Assembly: GCA_030066665.1 (NCBI GenBank)
Contig: JASJBD010000004.1
Span: 1-64,000, forward strand
Source of the DNA: Gammaproteobacteria bacterium
GTDB lineage: Bacteria; Pseudomonadota; Gammaproteobacteria; Steroidobacterales; GCA-2729495
DNA length: 64,000 bases
Direction: 5' to 3'
Positions 913 through 37,696 of this stretch are shown in pieces. The stretch's first letter is position 1; each line of letters starts with the position of its first letter. Both the position numbers and the translations under genes were made by a program. The notes beneath the pieces are model-generated. The model saw only the letters and a program-made list of their open reading frames with translations, ran no database searches and was not told the origin of the DNA.

Positions 913-941
913 TTGACGGGAGTCGAGTCTATACGTATAAG
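913..941 (+). promoter_or_regulatory. Sigma70-type promoter of the PhaF-like gene
   Basis: TTGACG (913-918) and TATAAG (936-941) are separated by exactly 17 bases, one mismatch each from the sigma70 consensus. Transcription would start near 948, inside the palindrome at 944-961, which is the usual geometry for repression by a TetR-family protein. The inferred 5' leader is about 70 bases long. Confidence 0.6.
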
Positions 942-943
942 TC

Positions 944-961
944 AGTATACAAATGTACACT
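944..961. promoter_or_regulatory. FabR/DesT-like operator, copy 1
   Basis: AGTATACAAATGTACACT is an 18-bp palindrome with arms AGTATACA and TGTACACT (one mismatch) around AA. TATACGTATA lies four bases upstream. The same arrangement with the same spacing recurs at 2755-2772 and 4766-4783, always in front of a phasin-like paralogue. Binding by the TetR-family protein at 2092-2715 is inferred. Confidence 0.65.
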
Positions 962-1019
962 TTGGAGCTATAGGATAATGTTGTTCGGTGGCACAGGCGC
1001 TGCCGACAAGGAGAGCACC

Positions 1020-1661
1020 ATGGCTGAGGGTAAATCGAAAAAACCGGCCAAACAGAAGGCACAGGCGAAAGCCGTTGCAAAGCCGCGACCAGAGGCGAAA
1101 AAAGAAGCCGCCGTAAAATCAGAAGCGGTTGCGAAGTCGCGAGCAGAAATGAAGCAGGCTGTTACCGAGTTGACGCAATCAGTCACTGAGGTGAAAGGGT
1201 TCTTCCAATCGCCATACCGTTGGACCATGCAAACGGGCGAGAAGCTCAGCATGGTAACGCTTGATATCCCCTGGGTCGTCCTGCAGGAAATCGGTCTGTC
1301 GGAAGAGCGGGCATCGGCGGCGAAGGATTTCAACCACAGATTCGTCAGAGGTCTCTACGGAGGTGTGGACAAAGTTGCCACCAAGATGGGCAGTGCGCTT
1401 TCGTATCCCTTCCGGGCGATCGGTTCGGCAGTAAGCAAGGCAGGTTCCGGGAAGGCGGAGAAGAAACCGGCCGCGAAGCCAAAGGAGAAAGTAGCTAAGG
1501 CCGAGAAGAAAGTGGCTAAGGCAGAGGAGAAGGTAGCTGCGAAATCAACCAAGGCTGCGAAGTCAAAAAAGGCCACAGTCGAAAAAAAAGCGACCGAAAA
1601 AAAAGCGAAGGTTGAAAAGGTAGCGGCCGAGGTAAAAGAAAAAATGGATGAGGCCGCATAG
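1020..1661 (+). CDS. Phasin-like protein with H1-like Lys/Ala-rich tail (PhaF-like)
   Basis: The 213-residue product has a Lys/Ala-rich N-terminus (1-45), a predicted helical core (about 50-135) and a long C-terminal tail of AEKKVAK/AAKSKKA-type repeats (about 145-205). The histone-H1-like tail is the hallmark of PhaF-type phasins, which coat PHA granules and tether them to the nucleoid. The core carries DIPW (82-85), GLSEER (92-97) and Tyr113 at the same spacing as the three small neighbours, so it belongs to the same paralogue family. I chose the ATG at 1020 because AAGGAG sits six bases upstream; the ATG at 978 has a weaker site. A promoter and operator lie upstream and a strong terminator downstream. 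The granule/DNA role is inferred. Confidence 0.75.
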   Translation: MAEGKSKKPAKQKAQAKAVAKPRPEAKKEAAVKSEAVAKSRAEMKQAVTELTQSVTEVKGFFQSPYRWTMQTGEKLSMVTLDIPWVVLQEIGLSEERASAAKDFNHRFVRGLYGGVDKVATKMGSALSYPFRAIGSAVSKAGSGKAEKKPAAKPKEKVAKAEKKVAKAEEKVAAKSTKAAKSKKATVEKKATEKKAKVEKVAAEVKEKMDEAA

Positions 1662-1689
1662 CTTAGACGGCACCAGCCTCCAAAGATCA

Positions 1690-1718
1690 GGGCAAACTTA
1701 GTGTTTGCCCTTTTTTTT
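1690..1718 (+). terminator. Rho-independent terminator
   Basis: Perfect 8-bp stem GGGCAAAC (1690-1697) / GTTTGCCC (1703-1710) with a five-base loop, followed by eight T. It ends the PhaF-like transcript. The convergent gene on the other strand has its stop codon in the loop at 1698-1700 and reads the T tract as part of its lysine-rich C-terminus. Confidence 0.85.
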
Positions 1719-2066
1719 CCGCTTCGATTTCTTGCCTTCGGCAGATTTCTTTGGCCCAGCGCCGGAATTTGTGGGCGGCGGACTGCTTTGATCTTCGATC
1801 AAATCGCGCAGCTCGCCGGCCTGCTTGACGGCCAAATCGCTGAATTCATCGAATGAGGAACAAACGCTGCCGTAAACGCGGTCAAGTATCCTGCGGTGAG
1901 ATGCCTTTAGAGCGCTGGCCTTCTCCTCCGGATAGCCGAACTCCCGGGCAATATCGACTGGTACTTCCACCATGGTCTGATGCACGTTGCTCACGGCATC
2001 CATCCCATTCTTAAAAGCGCTTTGGGCAAAGTCCCTGAATCGGGAGATTCTTTTTGTTTTACTCAT
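1698..2066 (-). CDS. Small phasin-like paralogue B with basic C-terminus
   Basis: This 122-residue protein has a predicted helical core with EVPVD (34-38), GYPEEK (44-49) and Tyr65, matching the three neighbouring paralogues without gaps. Its C-terminus is strongly basic (KKSKRKKKGKH), reminiscent of the longer basic tail of the PhaF-like protein opposite. It has no signal peptide or membrane segment. It follows the TetR-family gene on the same strand after 25 bases and is probably co-transcribed with it from the operator region near 2755. No strong ribosome binding site precedes ATG 2066. A granule- or membrane-surface role is inferred from family resemblance only. Confidence 0.65.
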   Translation of the reverse strand: MSKTKRISRFRDFAQSAFKNGMDAVSNVHQTMVEVPVDIAREFGYPEEKASALKASHRRILDRVYGSVCSSFDEFSDLAVKQAGELRDLIEDQSSPPPTNSGAGPKKSAEGKKSKRKKKGKH

Positions 2067-2091
2067 TTGTCAGGCTGTAGCTTTGATAGCG

Positions 2092-2715
2092 TCAAACTGT
2101 GTCACTGTGTTGCCAGTATTGCGCACCGGCCATAATCAATTCGATTTCCCGCTTGGTTCGCTCCTTGTGTTCCTGCAACAGAGCGGGCTTGTCTGGCGGT
2201 ATTGCAAGCAGCGTGGTCGTATCTTCGAGTAGCGTTGACACAATGAGACCCGCAGCGACATCTCGGTCGGCCGCCTTCAGGTCCGGCAGTACCAGCGACA
2301 GGTCGCTGGCGATCCGACTCCGCACGAACCCTAATTCATTCCGAATGGCATCCTGCAATGCTTGAGTACCACCCGTTCGCGACTGGTTCATGAATTGCAC
2401 GACGTTGGCATTTTCGAGTACGTATTGGTGATAGACGTCGAGGCTACGTCCTATGATCTCGTCCAGCGGCCGTTCTGAATCAAAGCTGCCGCGCATCAAT
2501 CGGCGCAGGTTCAGGCCGAGCTCATCGACCATGGCCAGCCCCAGTTCCTCCATATCACCGAAATGTCGATAGAAAGAGGTCGGGACGACGCCGGCATGCT
2601 TCGCCACTTCACGCAGACTGATGGATGCAAAGTTGGCACCGTAGCCCACGATTGACAGCACGGCGTCCATCAGCGCATTCCTGGTGCGAGCTTTTTTTTC
2701 GGCCCGGGACGGCAT
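2092..2715 (-). CDS. TetR-family regulator, FabR/DesT-like
   Basis: The 207-residue protein has a TetR N-terminal HTH (SLREVAKHAGVVPTSFYRHF, about residues 33-52) in which TSFYRHFGDMEELGLAMVDE closely follows FabR and DesT, regulators of unsaturated fatty acid synthesis that sense acyl-thioester composition. The all-helical C-terminus (about 70-205) ends in GAQYW, like FabR's GAYYW. It diverges from the phasin-like gene at 2825 with an 18-bp palindrome between them, so autoregulation is likely. Two more operator copies precede the other phasin-like genes, suggesting a dedicated local regulon. The gene is not next to fabA, fabB or a desaturase here, so a direct fatty-acid role is unproven. The acyl ligand is inferred. 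Confidence 0.8.
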   Translation of the reverse strand: MPSRAEKKARTRNALMDAVLSIVGYGANFASISLREVAKHAGVVPTSFYRHFGDMEELGLAMVDELGLNLRRLMRGSFDSERPLDEIIGRSLDVYHQYVLENANVVQFMNQSRTGGTQALQDAIRNELGFVRSRIASDLSLVLPDLKAADRDVAAGLIVSTLLEDTTTLLAIPPDKPALLQEHKERTKREIELIMAGAQYWQHSDTV

Positions 2716-2754
2716 CGATCACCAGATTCCTGTTAGTCTTTATAGGTATTTGTC

Positions 2755-2772
2755 AGTATACAACCGTTCACT
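2755..2772. promoter_or_regulatory. FabR/DesT-like operator, copy 2 (divergent)
   Basis: AGTATACAACCGTTCACT: the left arm equals that of copy 1, and the right arm CGTTCACT (AGTGAACG on the other strand) resembles the half-site I recall for DesT. It lies midway between the divergent TetR gene and the gene at 2825. TATAGGTATT precedes it at the spacing seen in copies 1 and 3, and TATATACGTA follows at 2783-2792, so both promoters could be occluded. Confidence 0.6.
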
Positions 2773-2824
2773 ATCACCTGATATATACGTAACCCAGTTT
2801 TGAACCACCGACAGGGGAAAAATT

Positions 2825-3085
2825 ATGAGCGACAAGAAACAGGAATCAGGCGGGGGCGGGACCCATCTTCTCGGGGTAGCTTTCAGGGCCGGCCTGGGTG
2901 CCTGCGAGAAAATGCAGCGGACCGCGATTGAGATCCCGCTGGACATCCTCGCCAAAGCTGGTTTCGATGAGGAAAAAGTCACGAGTATCCGTGAGCAGGC
3001 TGGCCAGAAAATCCACGAGATGTATGAATTGATCGACTCGGCTGCGACCAAGACCGGTCTCGTCGACGATAAGTCGAAAGAATAG
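2825..3085 (+). CDS. Small phasin-like paralogue C
   Basis: The 86-residue protein is essentially the bare family core: FRAGLGACEKM, then EIPLD (36-40), GFDEEK (46-51) and Tyr67. The distances from EIPLD to the G of GFDEEK (10) and on to Tyr (21) are identical in the paralogues at 1020, 1698 and 4829. It is predicted helical and lacks membrane segments. GGGGA just before ATG 2825 serves as ribosome binding site. It is monocistronic, with the shared operator upstream and a strong bidirectional terminator downstream. The family name is unknown to me; a phasin-like role is inferred. Confidence 0.7.
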   Translation: MSDKKQESGGGGTHLLGVAFRAGLGACEKMQRTAIEIPLDILAKAGFDEEKVTSIREQAGQKIHEMYELIDSAATKTGLVDDKSKE

Positions 3086-3112
3086 TTTCGCGCGGAGCAA
3101 ACCGACCGCAAT

Positions 3113-3148
3113 AAAAAAGCGCGCCCCTCAGGGCGCGCCTTTTTTTTC
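3113..3148. terminator. Bidirectional rho-independent terminator
   Basis: Perfect stem GCGCGCCC (3119-3126) / GGGCGCGC (3131-3138) with loop CTCA, flanked by six A upstream and eight T downstream. It terminates the gene ending at 3085 on the plus strand and the ATP-grasp gene ending at 3168 on the minus strand. Confidence 0.9.
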
Positions 3149-3167
3149 CAAACTGTGTTTTGTCTTG

Positions 3168-4529
3168 CTACGGGATCTGCTCCGGCACGCCGGGCGGCAT
3201 GCCCGTCGGTACGCCCAGCAGACGCCGTCGCAGCCACAGATAGTTTTCATACTTCTTGAAGATCGACAGCTTGTAATCGCAGCCCGGCGGGAAAATGTTC
3301 CCTTCCAGGTAGACCGGTCCTTCATTAGTGAAAATCACGTCCCAGCTGATTTCCACGTCGCCGTACATCTTGTTGTGCATTGCGATGCAGGCTTCGATAA
3401 CGTCGTTCATCTCCGGTACCGGAATGCCGGTGTATTTGCCGTCGCTGTGCGGGCGGATCGGCTGGCCGATCGTGCTGTCCTCGTAGTTCATCAGGTACGT
3501 ATCGAGATCGAAGTACGCGGTTGAATTCGAACCTTCCGGCGCAGGCAGGAACACGGCTGCCATCAGTTCGGCGTTGCCGTCGGCGTTCAATGTCATGATG
3601 CGGAAGCTACTGACCGGGAACGGCTCGCGCGTGCGATGCAATTTCTCGATCACGCCATTGTCATAGATCTTCAGGATGAATTCCTTCAGCTCGTCCTTCG
3701 TATAGGTGGTGGCCTCATCGGGTTGTTTCTCCGGGTCCTCGCAGATATAGACCTGGTTCTCTGCATCCCAGGTCATGGTGCGCAGGAATACCCCGGCACC
3801 ACCATGGGTCGGTTTGATGACAATGTCATCTTCCGGCAACTCGCCACGAACATGACCATGAACGATGACCGCGTATTCCTTTGTCGCGTGATGCCCTTCA
3901 GGCAGGTGGTTTTCGAAAACCTCGTGCCAGAAAATCTTGGATGAATGCTTCAGCGCGCGACTGGGATGCAGGCCGGCCTTGTGTTGCAGATAAGCATGCA
4001 AGGTAAACATGGTCATCAGCATCACGTTGTAGTTGGCCCAGCCCATGAAGCTGAACGGCTGGAACAGGGGCGGGATTTCGATCTTCTTCACATGTTGCAG
4101 ATAGGGTGGTGCGATAGCGACGGCCAGCAACGAGAAGATTGGTGCAAACAGCATCAGGATCGGTGTCAATACGACGATCAGCGGCAGCCATGCCCGACCG
4201 TGCGACTCATCCGAAATTCGATAAATCAGGCTCTGGAAGAAATGTTTCAGACCCAGGAAGCTCTTGACCGGATGCAGGAACATCAGCGAGTAGAACGCCC
4301 GCCAGCAATTGAAGGTATCGCTCCAGTAGCCCTGGTACTGCCAGTTGGCCGCATCGGGCTGACCGAGGCGCGCAAAATAATCGGGCCAGATCGGTGTCCG
4401 TGAGATGCCTGCGCCTTTTTCGGCGCCAGGTCCGCTGCCGGTCTTGGTCAGATCGACAGGCTCGATTGTCGCGTCGGCCGTGGCTTCGGCTTTAGCCTGG
4501 CCAGCGCTCATTTCGACGGATGCACTCAT
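3168..4529 (-). CDS. Membrane-associated ATP-grasp protein (sugar-transfer-associated type)
   Basis: The 453-residue product has one or two hydrophobic helices (about 115-145, WLPLIVVLTPILMLFAPIFS) and a C-terminal ATP-grasp domain. KPTHGGAGVFL (about 240) resembles the nucleotide-binding loop, SSFRIMTLN the central strand, and SWDVIFTNEGPVYLEGN (about 405-421) the metal-binding Asp/Glu/Asn set. The pattern fits the ATP-grasp_ST group found with polysaccharide and lipid-linked sugar genes, although no glycosyltransferase adjoins it. The substrate is unknown. I chose ATG 4529 because AGGAGG lies just upstream; the frame stays open to 4649. It is divergent from the phasin-like gene at 4829 and shares its control region. 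Confidence 0.65.
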   Translation of the reverse strand: MSASVEMSAGQAKAEATADATIEPVDLTKTGSGPGAEKGAGISRTPIWPDYFARLGQPDAANWQYQGYWSDTFNCWRAFYSLMFLHPVKSFLGLKHFFQSLIYRISDESHGRAWLPLIVVLTPILMLFAPIFSLLAVAIAPPYLQHVKKIEIPPLFQPFSFMGWANYNVMLMTMFTLHAYLQHKAGLHPSRALKHSSKIFWHEVFENHLPEGHHATKEYAVIVHGHVRGELPEDDIVIKPTHGGAGVFLRTMTWDAENQVYICEDPEKQPDEATTYTKDELKEFILKIYDNGVIEKLHRTREPFPVSSFRIMTLNADGNAELMAAVFLPAPEGSNSTAYFDLDTYLMNYEDSTIGQPIRPHSDGKYTGIPVPEMNDVIEACIAMHNKMYGDVEISWDVIFTNEGPVYLEGNIFPPGCDYKLSIFKKYENYLWLRRRLLGVPTGMPPGVPEQIP

Positions 4530-4734
4530 TGTTGGATTCCTCCTGGTCCTCCCCCGCGGAGGCCTCCTGGCGGGGAAGTTTCGGTTACACGGCGGTTGCC
4601 AAAAATCCGGAAAAACCGAGACGGTTACGCACGGCCCCAATGACAACACAATTGTACGGTTTCGCAGCCATTTCGATGGTCAATCTTAACACATTGATAA
4701 TATTGTATATATAGTCGAATCGCGGCTATTTCTT

Positions 4735-4763
4735 ATGTCAAAATGGCGTCTATACGTATATGT
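4735..4763 (+). promoter_or_regulatory. Probable promoter of paralogue D
   Basis: ATGTCA (4735-4740) and TATATG (4758-4763) are 17 bases apart, and the -10 element ends two bases before the operator, exactly as at 913-941. The -35 element is weak (4/6). The rest of 4530-4734 is AT-richer than the genes and carries no ORF that I can support. Confidence 0.45.
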
Positions 4764-4765
4764 CT

Positions 4766-4783
4766 GTATACAAGTGTGCACTA
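4766..4783. promoter_or_regulatory. FabR/DesT-like operator, copy 3
   Basis: TGTATACAAGTGTGCACT matches copy 1 at 15 of 18 positions, and TATACGTATA lies four bases upstream in both. It could also affect the divergent ATP-grasp gene. Confidence 0.6.
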
Positions 4784-4828
4784 AAAATGCTATATGTAAT
4801 GCAGGCGTTGGCAAAGGAGGGCAGGACG

Positions 4829-5155
4829 ATGACCACCAGTGGAAACAACGTGAGTAAAGACAGGAACGATAGCGGTTTCGTAGGATTCCTGCGCGAGTCC
4901 TTCCAGGCCGGCATGAAAGGTGTTGAAGGCATTCATCGGACGATGGCGGAAATCCCGCTCGATATGCTGGAAGGCCTCGGAGTCTCTGAAGAGAAAACCG
5001 CCGGCGTGCGCGAGAAACATCGCGGGATGCTGCGCGGCCTGTATGGTTCGATCGATTCCATCGCTGGCCAGCTGGCCGATTCTGCGACGGATCAAGTCGA
5101 GCGAGTCAGCGAGGCAGTCAGCACGTCGGATTCCGACGCTGAGAAAGCCCGCTAA
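4829..5155 (+). CDS. Small phasin-like paralogue D
   Basis: This 108-residue protein has FQAGMKGVEGIHRTMAEIPLD (core, about 25-45), GVSEEK (51-56) and Tyr72, the best match to the shared family pattern, followed by a short polar, helical C-terminus. It has no signal peptide or transmembrane segment. AAGGAGG eight bases before ATG 4829 fixes the start; the in-frame ATG at 4760 would lie inside the promoter/operator. The operator at 4766 and the similar leader length suggest co-regulation with the genes at 1020 and 2825. The role is inferred to be granule- or membrane-surface binding. Confidence 0.7.
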   Translation: MTTSGNNVSKDRNDSGFVGFLRESFQAGMKGVEGIHRTMAEIPLDMLEGLGVSEEKTAGVREKHRGMLRGLYGSIDSIAGQLADSATDQVERVSEAVSTSDSDAEKAR

Positions 5156-5214: not shown

Positions 5215-5298
5215 GCGGGGTTGATGCGTCGGTAAGTCACAGGTAATTTCCACAGCACGACAGCCAGGACTGCCACGAGACAGGGGAAGGAGAAACGC

Positions 5299-5553
5299 AT
5301 GCCCGATTTCAAGTGGATTGAGAATGCCGAAGCCGTATACGAGAAAACGATCTCGGCGACGCCATTTCCATTTCGTCGCACGACGAAGGATGGTCTGGAC
5401 GAGCTCTTGATGGAGCAATTCGGCGAAAACACGGAAATCAGCGAAGCAGATCTTGTAGCCGTAATCAAAGAGCACACGCCGTCGCCGTTTCTCGGACGTG
5501 GGATGAAAGCCATCGCACCGCTGCTGTCAGACCCTTCGCTCGCCGAATACTGA
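5299..5553 (+). CDS. Small PCP_red-domain-like protein
   Basis: This 84-residue soluble protein follows the pattern FKWIENAEAVYEK...PFPFRR...EISEADLVAVIKEH, which resembles the PCP_red domain (W..eAe..l..iP..vR......It.e) at the C-terminus of light-independent protochlorophyllide reductase subunit B. That domain also occurs alone or fused in non-photosynthetic bacteria. AAGGAG six bases upstream supports ATG 5299. It lies 28 bases before a small membrane protein in a run of plus-strand genes. A second PCP_red-like domain ends the protein at 7068-8054. The chlorophyll link is only through domain ancestry; the actual role is unknown. Confidence 0.5.
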   Translation: MPDFKWIENAEAVYEKTISATPFPFRRTTKDGLDELLMEQFGENTEISEADLVAVIKEHTPSPFLGRGMKAIAPLLSDPSLAEY

Positions 5554-5581
5554 CGCCCCAGACGCTAACGGGATCCCTGTC

Positions 5582-5833
5582 ATGACAAACCCCTACTGGG
5601 TGATTGCCCAGTGTGGCATTCTGCTCGAGATTTTTGGCGCGCTCTATATTTTCGTGGCATCAATATCGGCGCATCGCCAGATTGAGAGAATCTTTCGCGG
5701 TCTGGATGGCTGGAAAGAAATTCCCAAGCTGGTGGCCACCATTCAGCACCAGACCCGGACCGACATTACTGGCTTCGCCCTGCTGGGCAGTGGACTGATC
5801 ATGCAATTCATCGGCGGCTTCGGCACGCTGTGA
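5582..5833 (+). CDS. Small membrane protein, two helices
   Basis: The 83-residue protein has two hydrophobic segments (about 6-26 and 63-80) flanking a charged loop (IERIFRGLDGWKEIPKL). No family is recognised. Its stop overlaps the GTG start of the following MFS gene in a GTGA, so the two are translationally coupled, and it may assist or accompany that carrier. Confidence 0.55.
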   Translation: MTNPYWVIAQCGILLEIFGALYIFVASISAHRQIERIFRGLDGWKEIPKLVATIQHQTRTDITGFALLGSGLIMQFIGGFGTL

Positions 5834-7067: not shown

Positions 7068-8054
7068 ATGACAATCTTCCAGGATCTTCACGACGTGCTC
7101 CATGGCAAGGTGCGCGGCCACCCGGTCGGCATCAGCCTGTTTGTCGACGATATCCCGGAACGGTACCGCGCCAGGCGCGTCGATCCCTGCGCCATTGTGC
7201 GTCTCGCCATGGACGATGGTGAAATCGTTTATATCGATCGCGAGCATCATGATTGCACGGTCGGGGTGTTTACCGGCGGCATGCATGAAGGTACGGCAGA
7301 TATCCGCACCGGCGCCTACCTGTCCAAAAACATTCCGGCATATACCGACGAGGCGGCTGCCCGCACCAAGTCTGGCAAATTCGTGTTGCCGCCGGGTACG
7401 GTCAGGGCAATCGGGGCTGCGCCGCTGAATCGCATCCCGGACGGCGTCCGCGTCGACTGGATTGTGTGCGTGTGCATTCCACACTGGGTGCATTTCATTG
7501 GCGGTGCCCGCACGGTCATCGACGGCACACCGCCACATGGTGCAGCCGGCACGTCCTTCTGCAGCGAGCTGTTCGCGACTCCGTGGCACGAAGACAATGT
7601 AGTAATCACTCCGGCGGATATTGGCGGGCGAATGATGAATCGCATCAAGCCGGAGGAAATGTTCGTCATCGTGCCGATGAAATACACTCATACCCTGGTG
7701 AGTTTGCTTGCCGACCAGCCGGATGCGCGCGCGATGCTGGAAGCGACGCGCCCGCCGGATTCGCCCTACTGGGAAAAGCGCAAGCGCGCCGCGGAAAAGC
7801 AGCAGCGGCGTAAGCCAGAGACCGGTAGCGATGATGACGACAGATCGTTGGTTATTACCATGCCATGGCAGGAGGAGGCCAAGGCGCTGATTCGGCAGGC
7901 GCCGGCCGGCATGCTGGATATGGCGATCGGCTATGTCGAGGACTTTGCGCGCGAGAATGGCTACGAGGTCGTAACGGCTGAAGTGATTGCAGAGCAAATG
8001 AGATCGGTCGGGATGGATCCGGCCATGCTGAGCGGAGGCACCAATGCAAGTTGA
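7068..8054 (+). CDS. DUF169 protein with C-terminal PCP_red domain
   Basis: The 328-residue protein has an N-terminal region (about 1-235) that looks like DUF169 (ArCR): GHPVGISLFVDDIPERY near the start, a WIVCVCIPHWVHF stretch, and SFCSELFATPWHEDNVVITPADIGGR. A charged linker is followed by MPWQEEAKALIRQAPAGML...EVVTAEVIAEQM (about 262-310), a good PCP_red domain. DUF169 proteins are poorly characterised and occur in anaerobes and archaea. ATG 7068 is preferred, with AGGAAG upstream; a TTG at 7047 is the alternative. The 3' end overlaps the LLM gene by 11 bases, so the two are coupled and probably act in one reaction. Function is unknown. Confidence 0.6.
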   Translation: MTIFQDLHDVLHGKVRGHPVGISLFVDDIPERYRARRVDPCAIVRLAMDDGEIVYIDREHHDCTVGVFTGGMHEGTADIRTGAYLSKNIPAYTDEAAARTKSGKFVLPPGTVRAIGAAPLNRIPDGVRVDWIVCVCIPHWVHFIGGARTVIDGTPPHGAAGTSFCSELFATPWHEDNVVITPADIGGRMMNRIKPEEMFVIVPMKYTHTLVSLLADQPDARAMLEATRPPDSPYWEKRKRAAEKQQRRKPETGSDDDDRSLVITMPWQEEAKALIRQAPAGMLDMAIGYVEDFARENGYEVVTAEVIAEQMRSVGMDPAMLSGGTNAS

Positions 8055-9060
8055 CCTGATTCTGCACCCGAACAGTCCGCCGGAAATGTTCGCGGAGCTG
8101 GCCGTGCTTGCGGAAAGTTACGGCGTGGGAGGCATCTGGACGTCGAACATGCACGATGGCCGCGATCCTTTCGTGAACTTCGTGGATGCGGCGCGGGCGA
8201 CCAGCAAGATCCGGTTCGGCCCGGTGGCGGTGTCGCCGTATGAACTGCATCCGCTGAAAATGGGCAACGCACTGCTGACTCTGAATGAAATCGCCGGGGG
8301 TCGCGCGGGCATCGGCGTGGCGGCCGGTGATGGCGGCACTGCCTACGCGATGGGGGAGGTCGCGGAACATCGGCTGACGGCCGTGCGCGAGTGCGTCGAG
8401 ATCATCAACGCGATGGCCACCGGCGAAATGGTGCAATACCACGGCAAGATGTACATGGTGCGCTGGTATCACGCATCCTGGGTGAGCCAGCCGAAGCCGT
8501 CGGTGTATGTCTGTGCCGGTGGTCCACAGATGCTCCGGTCCAGTGCCAAGTACGCCGAGGGGATCTTCCTCGGTGATCACTTGCCGGAGCACGTTGCGGA
8601 AGTGCGTGCCGCTATCAATCCCGAAATCGAGGAACACAACCCGCACAAGGATGAATTCAAACTATTGAACTTCTGGGCCTGGCACGTCAAGGAAGACCCT
8701 GAAGAAACGCTGGCCGAATCACGCATGTGGCTGGCCGCGCGGGTCACGCCGTGGCCGACCTACTACCATCGCGGCATTCTGCCGGACGAAGAGATGCAGG
8801 TGGTCTGGGACAACACCGACGCGTTGAATCGCGCGTTCTATGCGCAGGACCCGAATATTCCGGAAATTCCGCGCGATATCCTGGACAGACTGTGCAAGCG
8901 GTGTACCGCGGCGTCACCGCTCGATGAAATCGATCACGAGATCGATCGCCTGCGCGAATTCGAGGCGGCCGGTTTGACGAATATTTGCCTGCGGGTCTAC
9001 GCCCAACCCGAGGAAACGATCCGGGTCATCGGCGAGCGCGTCATCCCCGCGCTCCGCTGA
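8044..9060 (+). CDS. LLM-class flavin-dependent oxidoreductase (Mer/luciferase-like)
   Basis: The 338-residue TIM-barrel protein shows family features: GGIWTSNMHDGRDPFVNF at the N-terminus, RFGPVAVSPYELHPLKMGNALLTLNE (first part RFGPVAVSPYELHP), then GRAGIGVAAGDGG, and a closing EAAGLTNICLRVY. Members use FMN or F420 and include 5,10-methylene-tetrahydromethanopterin reductase, monooxygenases and F420-dependent dehydrogenases. The cofactor cannot be told from sequence here. It is coupled to the DUF169/PCP_red gene and has two closer-spaced paralogues at 40516-42545. It converges with the oxidase operon. Confidence 0.85.
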   Translation: MQVDLILHPNSPPEMFAELAVLAESYGVGGIWTSNMHDGRDPFVNFVDAARATSKIRFGPVAVSPYELHPLKMGNALLTLNEIAGGRAGIGVAAGDGGTAYAMGEVAEHRLTAVRECVEIINAMATGEMVQYHGKMYMVRWYHASWVSQPKPSVYVCAGGPQMLRSSAKYAEGIFLGDHLPEHVAEVRAAINPEIEEHNPHKDEFKLLNFWAWHVKEDPEETLAESRMWLAARVTPWPTYYHRGILPDEEMQVVWDNTDALNRAFYAQDPNIPEIPRDILDRLCKRCTAASPLDEIDHEIDRLREFEAAGLTNICLRVYAQPEETIRVIGERVIPALR

Positions 9061-34985: not shown

Positions 34986-36794
34986 TTATTGGCTGCGGTT
35001 GGCTACGTAGCTGCCGGGCGCGTTTTCGATGACGTCGAGTTCGCCGTCACCCGGCACGCGGGCCGGCACCATTTTGCCGGAGTGCTCGCTCAGCCAGGCG
35101 TCCCAATCCGGCCACCAGGAGCCGGGATGTTCATCGGCGCCATCGAGCCACGCGTCAAGATCCCTCGGCTGTGCTTCGTTGATCCAGAACTGGTATTTCT
35201 GTTTCGCTGGCGGGTTGATCACGCCGGCGGTATGGCCAGAGCCCGACAGCATGAAGCGCACCGGGCCCGCGAAGTGTTGCATCGCCTTGAATACCGACGG
35301 GTAGGGCGCAATGTGGTCTTCCTTGGATGCCTGCAGATAGATCGGAATCTCGACTTTGCGCAGATCCACCGGCGTGCCATCCAGTTTCAGCGCGTTCGGC
35401 TTCACGAGATTGTTATTCATGTACATCTCGCGCAGGTAGTACAGGTGACAGGCACGCGGCATTCGTGTGGAGTCGGCGTTCCAGAAGAGCAAGTCAAATG
35501 GCATCGGGTCGCGCCCGAGCAGGTAATTGTTTACATAGAAGGACCAGATCAGGTCATTTGAGCGCAGCATGTTGAACGTCTGGAACATGTATTTGCTGTC
35601 CAGGTAGCCCTTGTCGGCGCTCAGGCGTTCCACATTTTCCACTTGCTTGTCATCGACAAAAATTTGCAGGTCACCAGGTTCGGAAAAATCGACCTGCGCG
35701 GTAAAAAACGTCGCGGCACGGATGCTCTTGTCCTGTCGGGCAGCCATCACCGCCAGCGTTGCTGCCAGCAGCGTTCCGCCAATGCAGTAGCCGATCGCCG
35801 TCATGCTCTTGACACCCGTGGCTTTCTTCACGGCGTCGACTGCCGTCAGAATGCCCTCGGTCATGTAGGCCTCAAATGGTTTTTCGGCAAGGTCGCTATC
35901 CGGATTGACCCAGGACATGACGAACACCGTGTAGCCGCGTTCCACCGCCCACTTGATGAAGGAGTTTTTCGGCGCGAGGTCCAGGATGTAGTACTTGTTG
36001 ATCCACGGCGGCACGATCAGCAGCGGGCGCTTATGCACCTGCTCCGTGACGGCCTCGTACTGGATCAATTGGAACAGATCGTTCTGGAACACGACCTTGC
36101 CAGGCGTGGTCGCGATATTCTCGCCGAGCACGAACGCTTCCGGATCCGTCATCGAGATCTCGAGTGAGCCGCCACCTTTTTCGACATCGCGCTTGAAATT
36201 CTCCAGACCGCGCAACAGGTTCGCGCCATTGGTCTTCAGCGTCTCTTCTGCGACTTCCGGGTTGGTCCAGATGAAGTTGGTCGGCGAAAATGCGTCGGCA
36301 AACTGCTGCGTGAAGAATCGCACCTTGCGCGCGGTGTCTTCGTCCAGGTCCTCGGCGCCGGCCATCATGTCGACCAGCCAGCGACTGGTAATCAGGTAGG
36401 ATTGCTTGATCAGGTCGAACAGTGGATTGGTTTGCCAGGCTTCGTGGCGGAAGCGCCGGTCGCCTTTACCGGGCTTCGCCACCGGTTCGGCCTCACTGCT
36501 ACCCAGCAGGCCGGCGCTGGCCTGCTGCCAGAGCTGCATATGGTCTTGCCACAGGCGCATGTTGGCCTGCATCACGCGCGCCGGGTCCGTCCACAGTTTT
36601 TGCCCGGCCTTCGCGAAGGCTTCTCCGAGATTGAAGGGATCCGCCGAATCGGCGCCGGGCGGCTGTCCCAGCTTGCCGAACAGCGCCTGGCTTTCCAGCG
36701 CAAATTTCATGAGTTCGTTGGACAACCGCGCGTAATCGTCGGGTCCGAACCCCGGCGGCATTTGCGTGAAGGCGTCGTGAGGATTCGTGCTCAT
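34986..36794 (-). CDS. phaC: Class I polyhydroxyalkanoate synthase
   Basis: The 602-residue enzyme polymerises 3-hydroxyacyl-CoA into PHA. The alpha/beta-hydrolase core has the lipase-like box GYCIGGT with the catalytic Cys (about 337), Asp in KEDHIAP (about 493) and His in GSGHTAG (about 517), and NADSTRMP typical of PhaC. Its size suits class I (homodimer, short-chain monomers). ATG 36794 overlaps the phaR stop by one base (TAATG), so it is coupled to phaR. The frame is open upstream to 36854, but that lies within phaR. Confidence 0.95.
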   Translation of the reverse strand: MSTNPHDAFTQMPPGFGPDDYARLSNELMKFALESQALFGKLGQPPGADSADPFNLGEAFAKAGQKLWTDPARVMQANMRLWQDHMQLWQQASAGLLGSSEAEPVAKPGKGDRRFRHEAWQTNPLFDLIKQSYLITSRWLVDMMAGAEDLDEDTARKVRFFTQQFADAFSPTNFIWTNPEVAEETLKTNGANLLRGLENFKRDVEKGGGSLEISMTDPEAFVLGENIATTPGKVVFQNDLFQLIQYEAVTEQVHKRPLLIVPPWINKYYILDLAPKNSFIKWAVERGYTVFVMSWVNPDSDLAEKPFEAYMTEGILTAVDAVKKATGVKSMTAIGYCIGGTLLAATLAVMAARQDKSIRAATFFTAQVDFSEPGDLQIFVDDKQVENVERLSADKGYLDSKYMFQTFNMLRSNDLIWSFYVNNYLLGRDPMPFDLLFWNADSTRMPRACHLYYLREMYMNNNLVKPNALKLDGTPVDLRKVEIPIYLQASKEDHIAPYPSVFKAMQHFAGPVRFMLSGSGHTAGVINPPAKQKYQFWINEAQPRDLDAWLDGADEHPGSWWPDWDAWLSEHSGKMVPARVPGDGELDVIENAPGSYVANRSQ

Positions 36795-37249
36795 TAGTCG
36801 TTCTTGCGCTGCGGTTTCATCGCGTCCAGAAACGCTTTCTGCATTTGTTGCCACAGTTCCATGTTCTGTTTCGCCAGATCTGGCATCGACGCACCGGGCG
36901 TCATCGACATGGCTTGCTGGAACTGGTCCTGCATGGCTTTCTGCTGGCGCAGGAACGCGGTCATGCTCTGTTCCAGGTATTGACCCATGAAGCCCTGCAT
37001 CGGGTTGCCGTAGAAGCGAATAATGTGTTTCAGCATTGCCGTGCTCAGCACCGGCTGACCGCCCTGTTCCTGGTCGGCAATAATCTGCAAAAGGATGTTG
37101 CGGGTGATGTCCTCGCCGGTGGCGTCATCGGTGACCACGACGTCCTCGCCGGACGCGACCAGCTCCCGGACACCCTCCAGCGTCACATGGCGGCTCGCCT
37201 CGGCGTCATACAGGCGGCGATTGGCGTATTTCTTGATGACTCTTGGCAT
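36794..37249 (-). CDS. phaR: PHA synthesis repressor
   Basis: The 151-residue protein has the conserved N-terminal DNA-binding domain (KKYANRRLYDAEASRHVTLEG, about 6-26) and the PHB_acc domain (MLKHIIRFYGNPMQGFMGQYLEQSM, about 72-96; KHIIRFYGNPMQGF is diagnostic). PhaR binds both phasin promoters and PHA granules, derepressing phasin when polymer accumulates. It is coupled to phaC downstream. A strong terminator separates it from the phasin gene upstream. Confidence 0.95.
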   Translation of the reverse strand: MPRVIKKYANRRLYDAEASRHVTLEGVRELVASGEDVVVTDDATGEDITRNILLQIIADQEQGGQPVLSTAMLKHIIRFYGNPMQGFMGQYLEQSMTAFLRQQKAMQDQFQQAMSMTPGASMPDLAKQNMELWQQMQKAFLDAMKPQRKND

Positions 37250-37357: not shown

Positions 37358-37696
37358 TCAGGCAGCTTTCTTGACCTCGGCGGCGACAACGTCAGTGGTC
37401 TGAGCCTGTGCGGCGCGGGCCAGGTCGGCGAAGCCGAGGAAACGCTCGACCATTTTGGCGCCGAAGTTACGCGTGACCTCAACTTCCTTGTTGACGTATT
37501 CGTTCACGTTCTCGACCTCGGTGGGCAGCTTGGCCTGCTGCACGGCAAAATCCACGAAATCGCCGGCCACGGCGTAGCTCTGACGGGCGAATTTCTCGAA
37601 GATGTCCACGCCGTTGGCGTAGAAATCCGCGACGGGCCTGAGATTCTGGACCTGGAAGTCGAAGAATTGCTTGATCTGGTCATTCTGGTCGCTCAT
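37358..37696 (-). CDS. phaP: Phasin (granule surface protein)
   Basis: The 112-residue helical, amphipathic protein (IKQFFDFQVQNLRPVADFYANGVDIFEKF...) fits the Phasin_2 family and lies just upstream of phaR and phaC. It coats PHA granules. It does not carry the EIPLD/EEK/Tyr core of the four paralogues at 1-5 kb. The C-terminus is Ala/Lys-rich. The promoter region (37697-37911) has no copy of the 18-bp operator. Confidence 0.85.
   Translation of the reverse strand: MSDQNDQIKQFFDFQVQNLRPVADFYANGVDIFEKFARQSYAVAGDFVDFAVQQAKLPTEVENVNEYVNKEVEVTRNFGAKMVERFLGFADLARAAQAQTTDVVAAEVKKAA

Follow-up and report, generated by a model that had tools for sequence, protein, structure and literature searches.

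The first 5.2 kb of a 64,000-nucleotide stretch of a gammaproteobacterial contig (the window) carry four small genes whose products share a core, together with a gene for a TetR-type regulator. This raises the question of what this protein family does and which signal controls it.

Four paralogs with a common core

All four open reading frames were found where the initial annotation had placed them, and their translations confirmed the tails it had described. Family member A (positions 1020–1661, + strand) encodes 213 aa with a net charge of +23, in which the core hairpin lies between a Lys/Ala-rich N-terminal stretch and an H1-like C-terminal tail; a Shine-Dalgarno sequence, AAGGAG, at 1007–1012 supports its ATG at 1020. 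Member B (1698–2066, − strand), convergent with A, consists of the core followed by a short basic tail, and a terminator-like hairpin (1682–1718) is situated between these two genes. B lies 25 bp downstream of the regulator gene (2092–2715, − strand) on the same strand, in an apparent operon with it. Members C (2825–3085, + strand, 86 aa) and D (4829–5155, + strand, 108 aa) are bare cores, divergent from the TetR gene and from an ATP-grasp gene, respectively.

The four cores align without gaps, and P, G, EE and Y are the same in each of them. G comes 10 residues after the acidic residue and Y 21 residues after G, so that the spacing claimed for all four proteins is exact. In a leave-one-out analysis, profile HMMs built from three cores were searched against the 564 ORFs of the window. 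The remaining member was recovered with E-values of 6.7e-10 (A), 2.3e-15 (B), 5.3e-13 (C) and 9.9e-20 (D), compared with 0.74–2.5 for the best unrelated ORF, and a profile made from members in other genomes alone detects each of the four with an E-value no higher than 1e-17. A–D are homologous, well past chance. The motif as such is invariant in A–D, whereas among all 17 family members only G is strictly conserved, P is present in 16, and EE and Y vary.

Scans of these 17 members against Pfam and NCBIfam gave no credible family match, only scattered weak or low-complexity ones, in agreement with the earlier claim that the core belongs to no described family in these collections. The NCBIfam matches below 0.01 (GltJ and LIC_12096) were few and involved between one and three members; low-complexity tails are their probable cause. 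Viral contigs, plasmids and PDB sequences searched with the family also yielded no credible relative.

A fifth paralog in the same genome is unlinked (contig C80) and adjoins smpB; B-type copies group with smpB-linked copies in the phylogenetic tree. All tailed members fall into one clade (support 91/94), while the deep forks are only partly resolved. From this grouping, the division of labour between the types is older than the species. The tailed members, among them A (A1020) and proteins of two other genomes (G2_5880 and G16), end in a Lys/Ala/Pro repeat, with the strongest AAPKAKAK-type repeats in the congener G002, and carry net charges of +10 to +33. Another G002 member (L030:445–957) has part of the N-terminal core duplicated (SIGFLRASKK...FEVPSTMLKDLGFSKE, twice).

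The charge of these members would also suit an AlgP-like role in organising the nucleoid or polyphosphate granules, in which the basic tails do the work and the hairpins serve only for oligomerisation; AlgP likewise has a Lys/Ala/Pro tail and acts on polyphosphate granules (PMC9239181). We consider such a role improbable, because two of the four cluster members, the bare ones, are acidic and polyphosphate would be oddly controlled by an acyl-sensing repressor.

The repressor and its operators

The regulator proved to be FabR/DesT-like, as had been proposed for the gene embedded among the paralogs. It matches DesT (PDB 3lsj) over residues 3–202 with an E-value of 1.9e-28, and aligns along its full length (residues 3–204) with the FabR model NF008402 at 133.9 bits and an E-value of 5.9e-39. 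Because this score is below the equivalog cut-off of 151 bits, the protein is best described as a relative of FabR and DesT rather than FabR itself. It shares 33% identity with E. coli FabR, including an identical PTSFYRHF in the helix-turn-helix, and the remaining TetR proteins of the genome match FabR weakly. The gene is also present in the congeners G001 and G002; in the latter, it is followed by a B-type gene in the same order as in the window (L028:4658–5272 and 5283–5717). An oxyR–fabR pair was also seen in a sequence labelled Pseudomonas stutzeri NCTC11607 (L043), with a FabR almost the same as the Rodentibacter protein, so the label may be wrong.

Three near-identical 18-bp palindromes, as initially annotated, lie at 944–961 (AGTATACAAATGTACACT), 2755–2772 (AGTATACAACCGTTCACT) and 4765–4782 (TGTATACAAGTGTGCACT), with none expected in shuffled sequences. 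At up to one mismatch, they are absent from the rest of the 3.64-Mb genome except for one weaker site on contig C149, and none was found at the phaC, phaR and phaP genes of the window or at the unlinked family copies of G001, G002 and this genome. The first operator directly follows a −10-like TATAAG, with TTGACG 17 nt upstream of the latter. The second lies in the divergent intergenic region between the regulator gene and C, where autoregulation is presumed. The third lies upstream of D, in the intergenic region from which D and the ATP-grasp gene diverge, and the latter gene is a possible further target. Member B has no operator of its own and is presumably served by operator 2, given its position 25 bp behind the regulator gene. 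Since operator 2 can serve both the regulator gene and C, all four members can fall under the three operators, and the co-regulation that had been claimed is thus borne out at the level of gene arrangement.

Seven operators from four genomes could be aligned, each 46–105 bp ahead of a family gene. Five of the seven are preceded by a common TATACGTATAAT-like element, for instance TATACGTATAATTC in G016 and ATACGTATAATAC in G001. Operator and element together stand ahead of family genes in G001, G002 and G016, which are independent genomes. In the window, a conserved element containing the −10 box (930–942, + strand, TATACGTATAAGT) abuts operator 1 and a −10-like one (4751–4764, + strand, TATACGTATATGTC) abuts operator 3. 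These −10 elements were not among the hits of a simple promoter scan that applied stricter rules. In the combined arrangement TATACGTATAATTC-AGTATACANNTGTACACT, which resembles E. coli FabR sites, the operator stands directly after the −10 box and would therefore cover the transcription start; repression by blocked initiation would be the natural reading.

Comparison with the E. coli sites places the palindrome (AGTATACANNTGTACACT) in the FabR kind. With a matrix of the window sites, the top-scoring site in the regulatory region upstream of E. coli fabB is AGCGTACACTTGTACGCC and in that upstream of fabA AGCTAACACGTGTACGCT; in Cognaticolwellia and a betaproteobacterium, the matrix also picks sites next to FabR-type genes. 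The fabA site scores 10.8, and since shuffles of 64 kb score up to about 14 under the enlarged matrix, it would not stand out alone; it counts because it falls in a short regulatory region known to be bound (PMC3462791).

In E. coli and Pseudomonas, FabR and DesT govern membrane unsaturation (PMC3462791, PMC8872791), and they sense whether long acyl-CoA is saturated or unsaturated (PMC8872791, PMC4418694). A search of the present genome (87% complete) did not find fabA, and no operator occurs in the 3.6 kb around its sole PF00487 desaturase locus. Together with the operators being unique to the cluster, this suggests that the regulator is dedicated to the cluster here. The pairing of such a repressor with such a family is unusual, and our literature search found no paper that ties FabR to PHA proteins. 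In sum, one repressor gene and four paralogs, all downstream of three operators that overlap the presumed transcription start, make a regulon that is well supported by the sequence.

Neighbouring genes and distribution in relatives

Besides this genome, the family was found in three others among 147 relatives and 396 genomes sampled from the order: two congeners, G001 (CP070671.1, ‘Chromatiales bacterium bin74’) and G002 (CAKZWQ010000024.1, an uncultured gammaproteobacterium with seven family matches), and G016, a member of the same taxonomic family. Among 369 genomes of the class it occurs in this genome alone. Judged from this sampling, the family is lineage-restricted. Each of the three relatives has the operator, a tailed member and, adjoining the cluster, a gene of PF09650 (PHA_gran_rgn), which is counted as a phasin family (PMC5658603). 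In the present genome the start of contig C29 truncates the PF09650 gene, in an orientation that, judged by synteny with G001, would fit a junction with the start of the window's contig.

The ATP-grasp gene (3168–4529, − strand; weak PF14397 match) and a gene for an 84-aa protein with no family match (5299–5553, + strand) are kept with the cluster in both congeners. At the contig start, which truncates it, lies a gene for a protein like ferredoxin-dependent bilin reductases (3–848, + strand; PF05996). The C-terminus of this protein resembles PCP_red, with a PF08369 score under the cut-off. A copy stands beside the cluster in G001 (L027:4032–4925; PF05996 61.3 bits, PDB 6qwq E 3e-4). A second protein near the cluster with a PCP_red-like C-terminal stretch is encoded at 7068–8054 (+ strand), a DUF169 protein (PF02596) scoring 29.6 bits against PF08369, for which the cut-off is 32.5; it is followed by a luciferase-like monooxygenase (8044–9060). 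The conserved neighbourhood allows the family to be read as accessory proteins, such as scaffolds, of a lipid or cofactor pathway formed by these five genes. That would be very improbable, given that neither a bilin-reductase-like nor a DUF169 gene was found in the part of G002 covered, and that the operators precede family genes and not the neighbours, save in the region shared with the ATP-grasp gene.

The classical pha locus of the window (phaC 34986–36794, phaR 36794–37249, phaP 37358–37696) is separate from the cluster, as had been noted initially. The congener G003 possesses phaP, phaR and phaC but not the family, while in G002 the family is present, its whole genome contains no PF09361 gene, and phaC was not found in the 2.12 Mb examined out of about 3.0 Mb. 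G002 also has a PhaR-like gene (L232:7755–8186; 49% over 76 aa to the PhaR of the window) with no phaC beside it. Since the pha locus here lacks the operator and the two congeners separate the family from the pha genes found, the surface that the family serves may be another lipid inclusion or a membrane.

A rival reading is that the proteins have no granule role and bind the inner membrane, adjusting it as the acyl-chain composition shifts. The membrane targets of FabR and DesT elsewhere, the absence of a recognisable PHA synthase from the G002 sequence covered and the long hydrophobic segment of the neighbouring ATP-grasp protein would agree with this. We nevertheless regard it as unlikely, since a Lys/Ala-rich tail of the DNA-binding type fits a membrane less well and the PF09650 neighbour points to PHA.

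Phasin-like architecture and likeness to known systems

The structure of member D predicted by AlphaFold is a two-helix hairpin (H14–49/H54–107) with a mean pLDDT of 73. Foldseek returned no match to this model at E 0.001 or better; VIA-align gave Z-scores up to 9.4, within the tool's range for unrelated helical bundles, and the structural matches in the PDB were unspecific helical bundles. The prediction thus gave a helical hairpin but no informative structural match, and because such hairpins are common, the predicted fold says little. The second helix is amphipathic, with a hydrophobic moment of 0.42–0.65, similar to the 0.59 of the PhaP of the window; the highest moments in the members computed were 0.45–0.65. 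Phasins have such a helix, as do many unrelated proteins.

Membership in the known phasin families found no support. With the PF05597 HMM, no match at E up to 1 was obtained among the 17 members, and none in the whole genome; hhalign of the family against PF05597 gave a score of 18.2 with a probability of 2.4%, a weak colinear similarity that one of 150 heptad-preserving shuffles equalled. The PF09361 HMM also matched none of the 17 members, and in hhalign the family scored 14.0 while the best shuffle reached 13.6, which indicates no similarity. By architecture, the proteins appear phasin-like; these tests did not place them in a known phasin family. The sequence comparisons point to a new, small family under a real and conserved FabR-type regulon.

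Taken together, the best reading, which we hold to be about as likely as not, is that the cluster is a FabR/DesT-type, acyl-responsive regulon of lineage-restricted, amphipathic, phasin-like lipid-surface proteins, with PhaF-like tailed and PhaI-like bare members. The lipid surface as the target of the family is inferred from these features, and the link to PHA is contextual. A change in the acyl-CoA/ACP pool, in the manner of the saturated/unsaturated switch of DesT, would cause the repressor to leave its operators, whereby the paralogs would be induced together with the repressor itself through autoregulation. The hairpin proteins would then settle via the amphipathic second helix on a hydrophobic lipid surface, either PHA, another lipid inclusion or a membrane. 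The Lys/Ala-tailed member could tether this surface to the nucleoid like PhaF, while the bare members would form a coat like PhaI, an arrangement with precedent in PhaF, PhaI and PhaD (PMC9049629, PMC5658603, PMC9239181). A bolder and rather doubtful version is that the sensor was shifted from membrane lipid genes to a new, non-PHA lipid-surface family, so that coating follows acyl-chain composition. If the lipid-surface reading is true, a membrane-lipid sensor has been recruited to control a new family of lipid-surface proteins, and there is a direct link between acyl-chain composition and the production of a coat on an inclusion or membrane.

Among known systems, PhaD-PhaI-PhaF of Pseudomonas putida likewise has a TetR-type regulator close to small helical proteins, one type bare and the other with an H1-like tail, under carbon-source-dependent control (PMC9049629). 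In contrast, PhaD is an activator within the phaC cluster, whereas the regulator described here is of the FabR/DesT type and lies away from phaC; moreover, PhaI and PhaF are PF05597 phasins, which the present family does not match. With E. coli FabR and P. aeruginosa DesT, the regulator shares similarity over its whole length, the 33% identity to E. coli FabR, the PTSFYRHF motif and a similar operator, but the targets found here are small helical proteins instead of fabA, which was not found, or the desaturase locus, which has no operator. The Phasin_2 (PF09361) proteins, including the window's own PhaP, are also small, helical and amphipathic, yet they show no HMM or profile similarity to the family, and phaP belongs to a separate locus without the operator. 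AlgP, by its description, also joins a Lys/Ala-rich tail to a helical N-terminal portion (PMC9239181), and differs in that here the cluster includes an acyl-type regulator.
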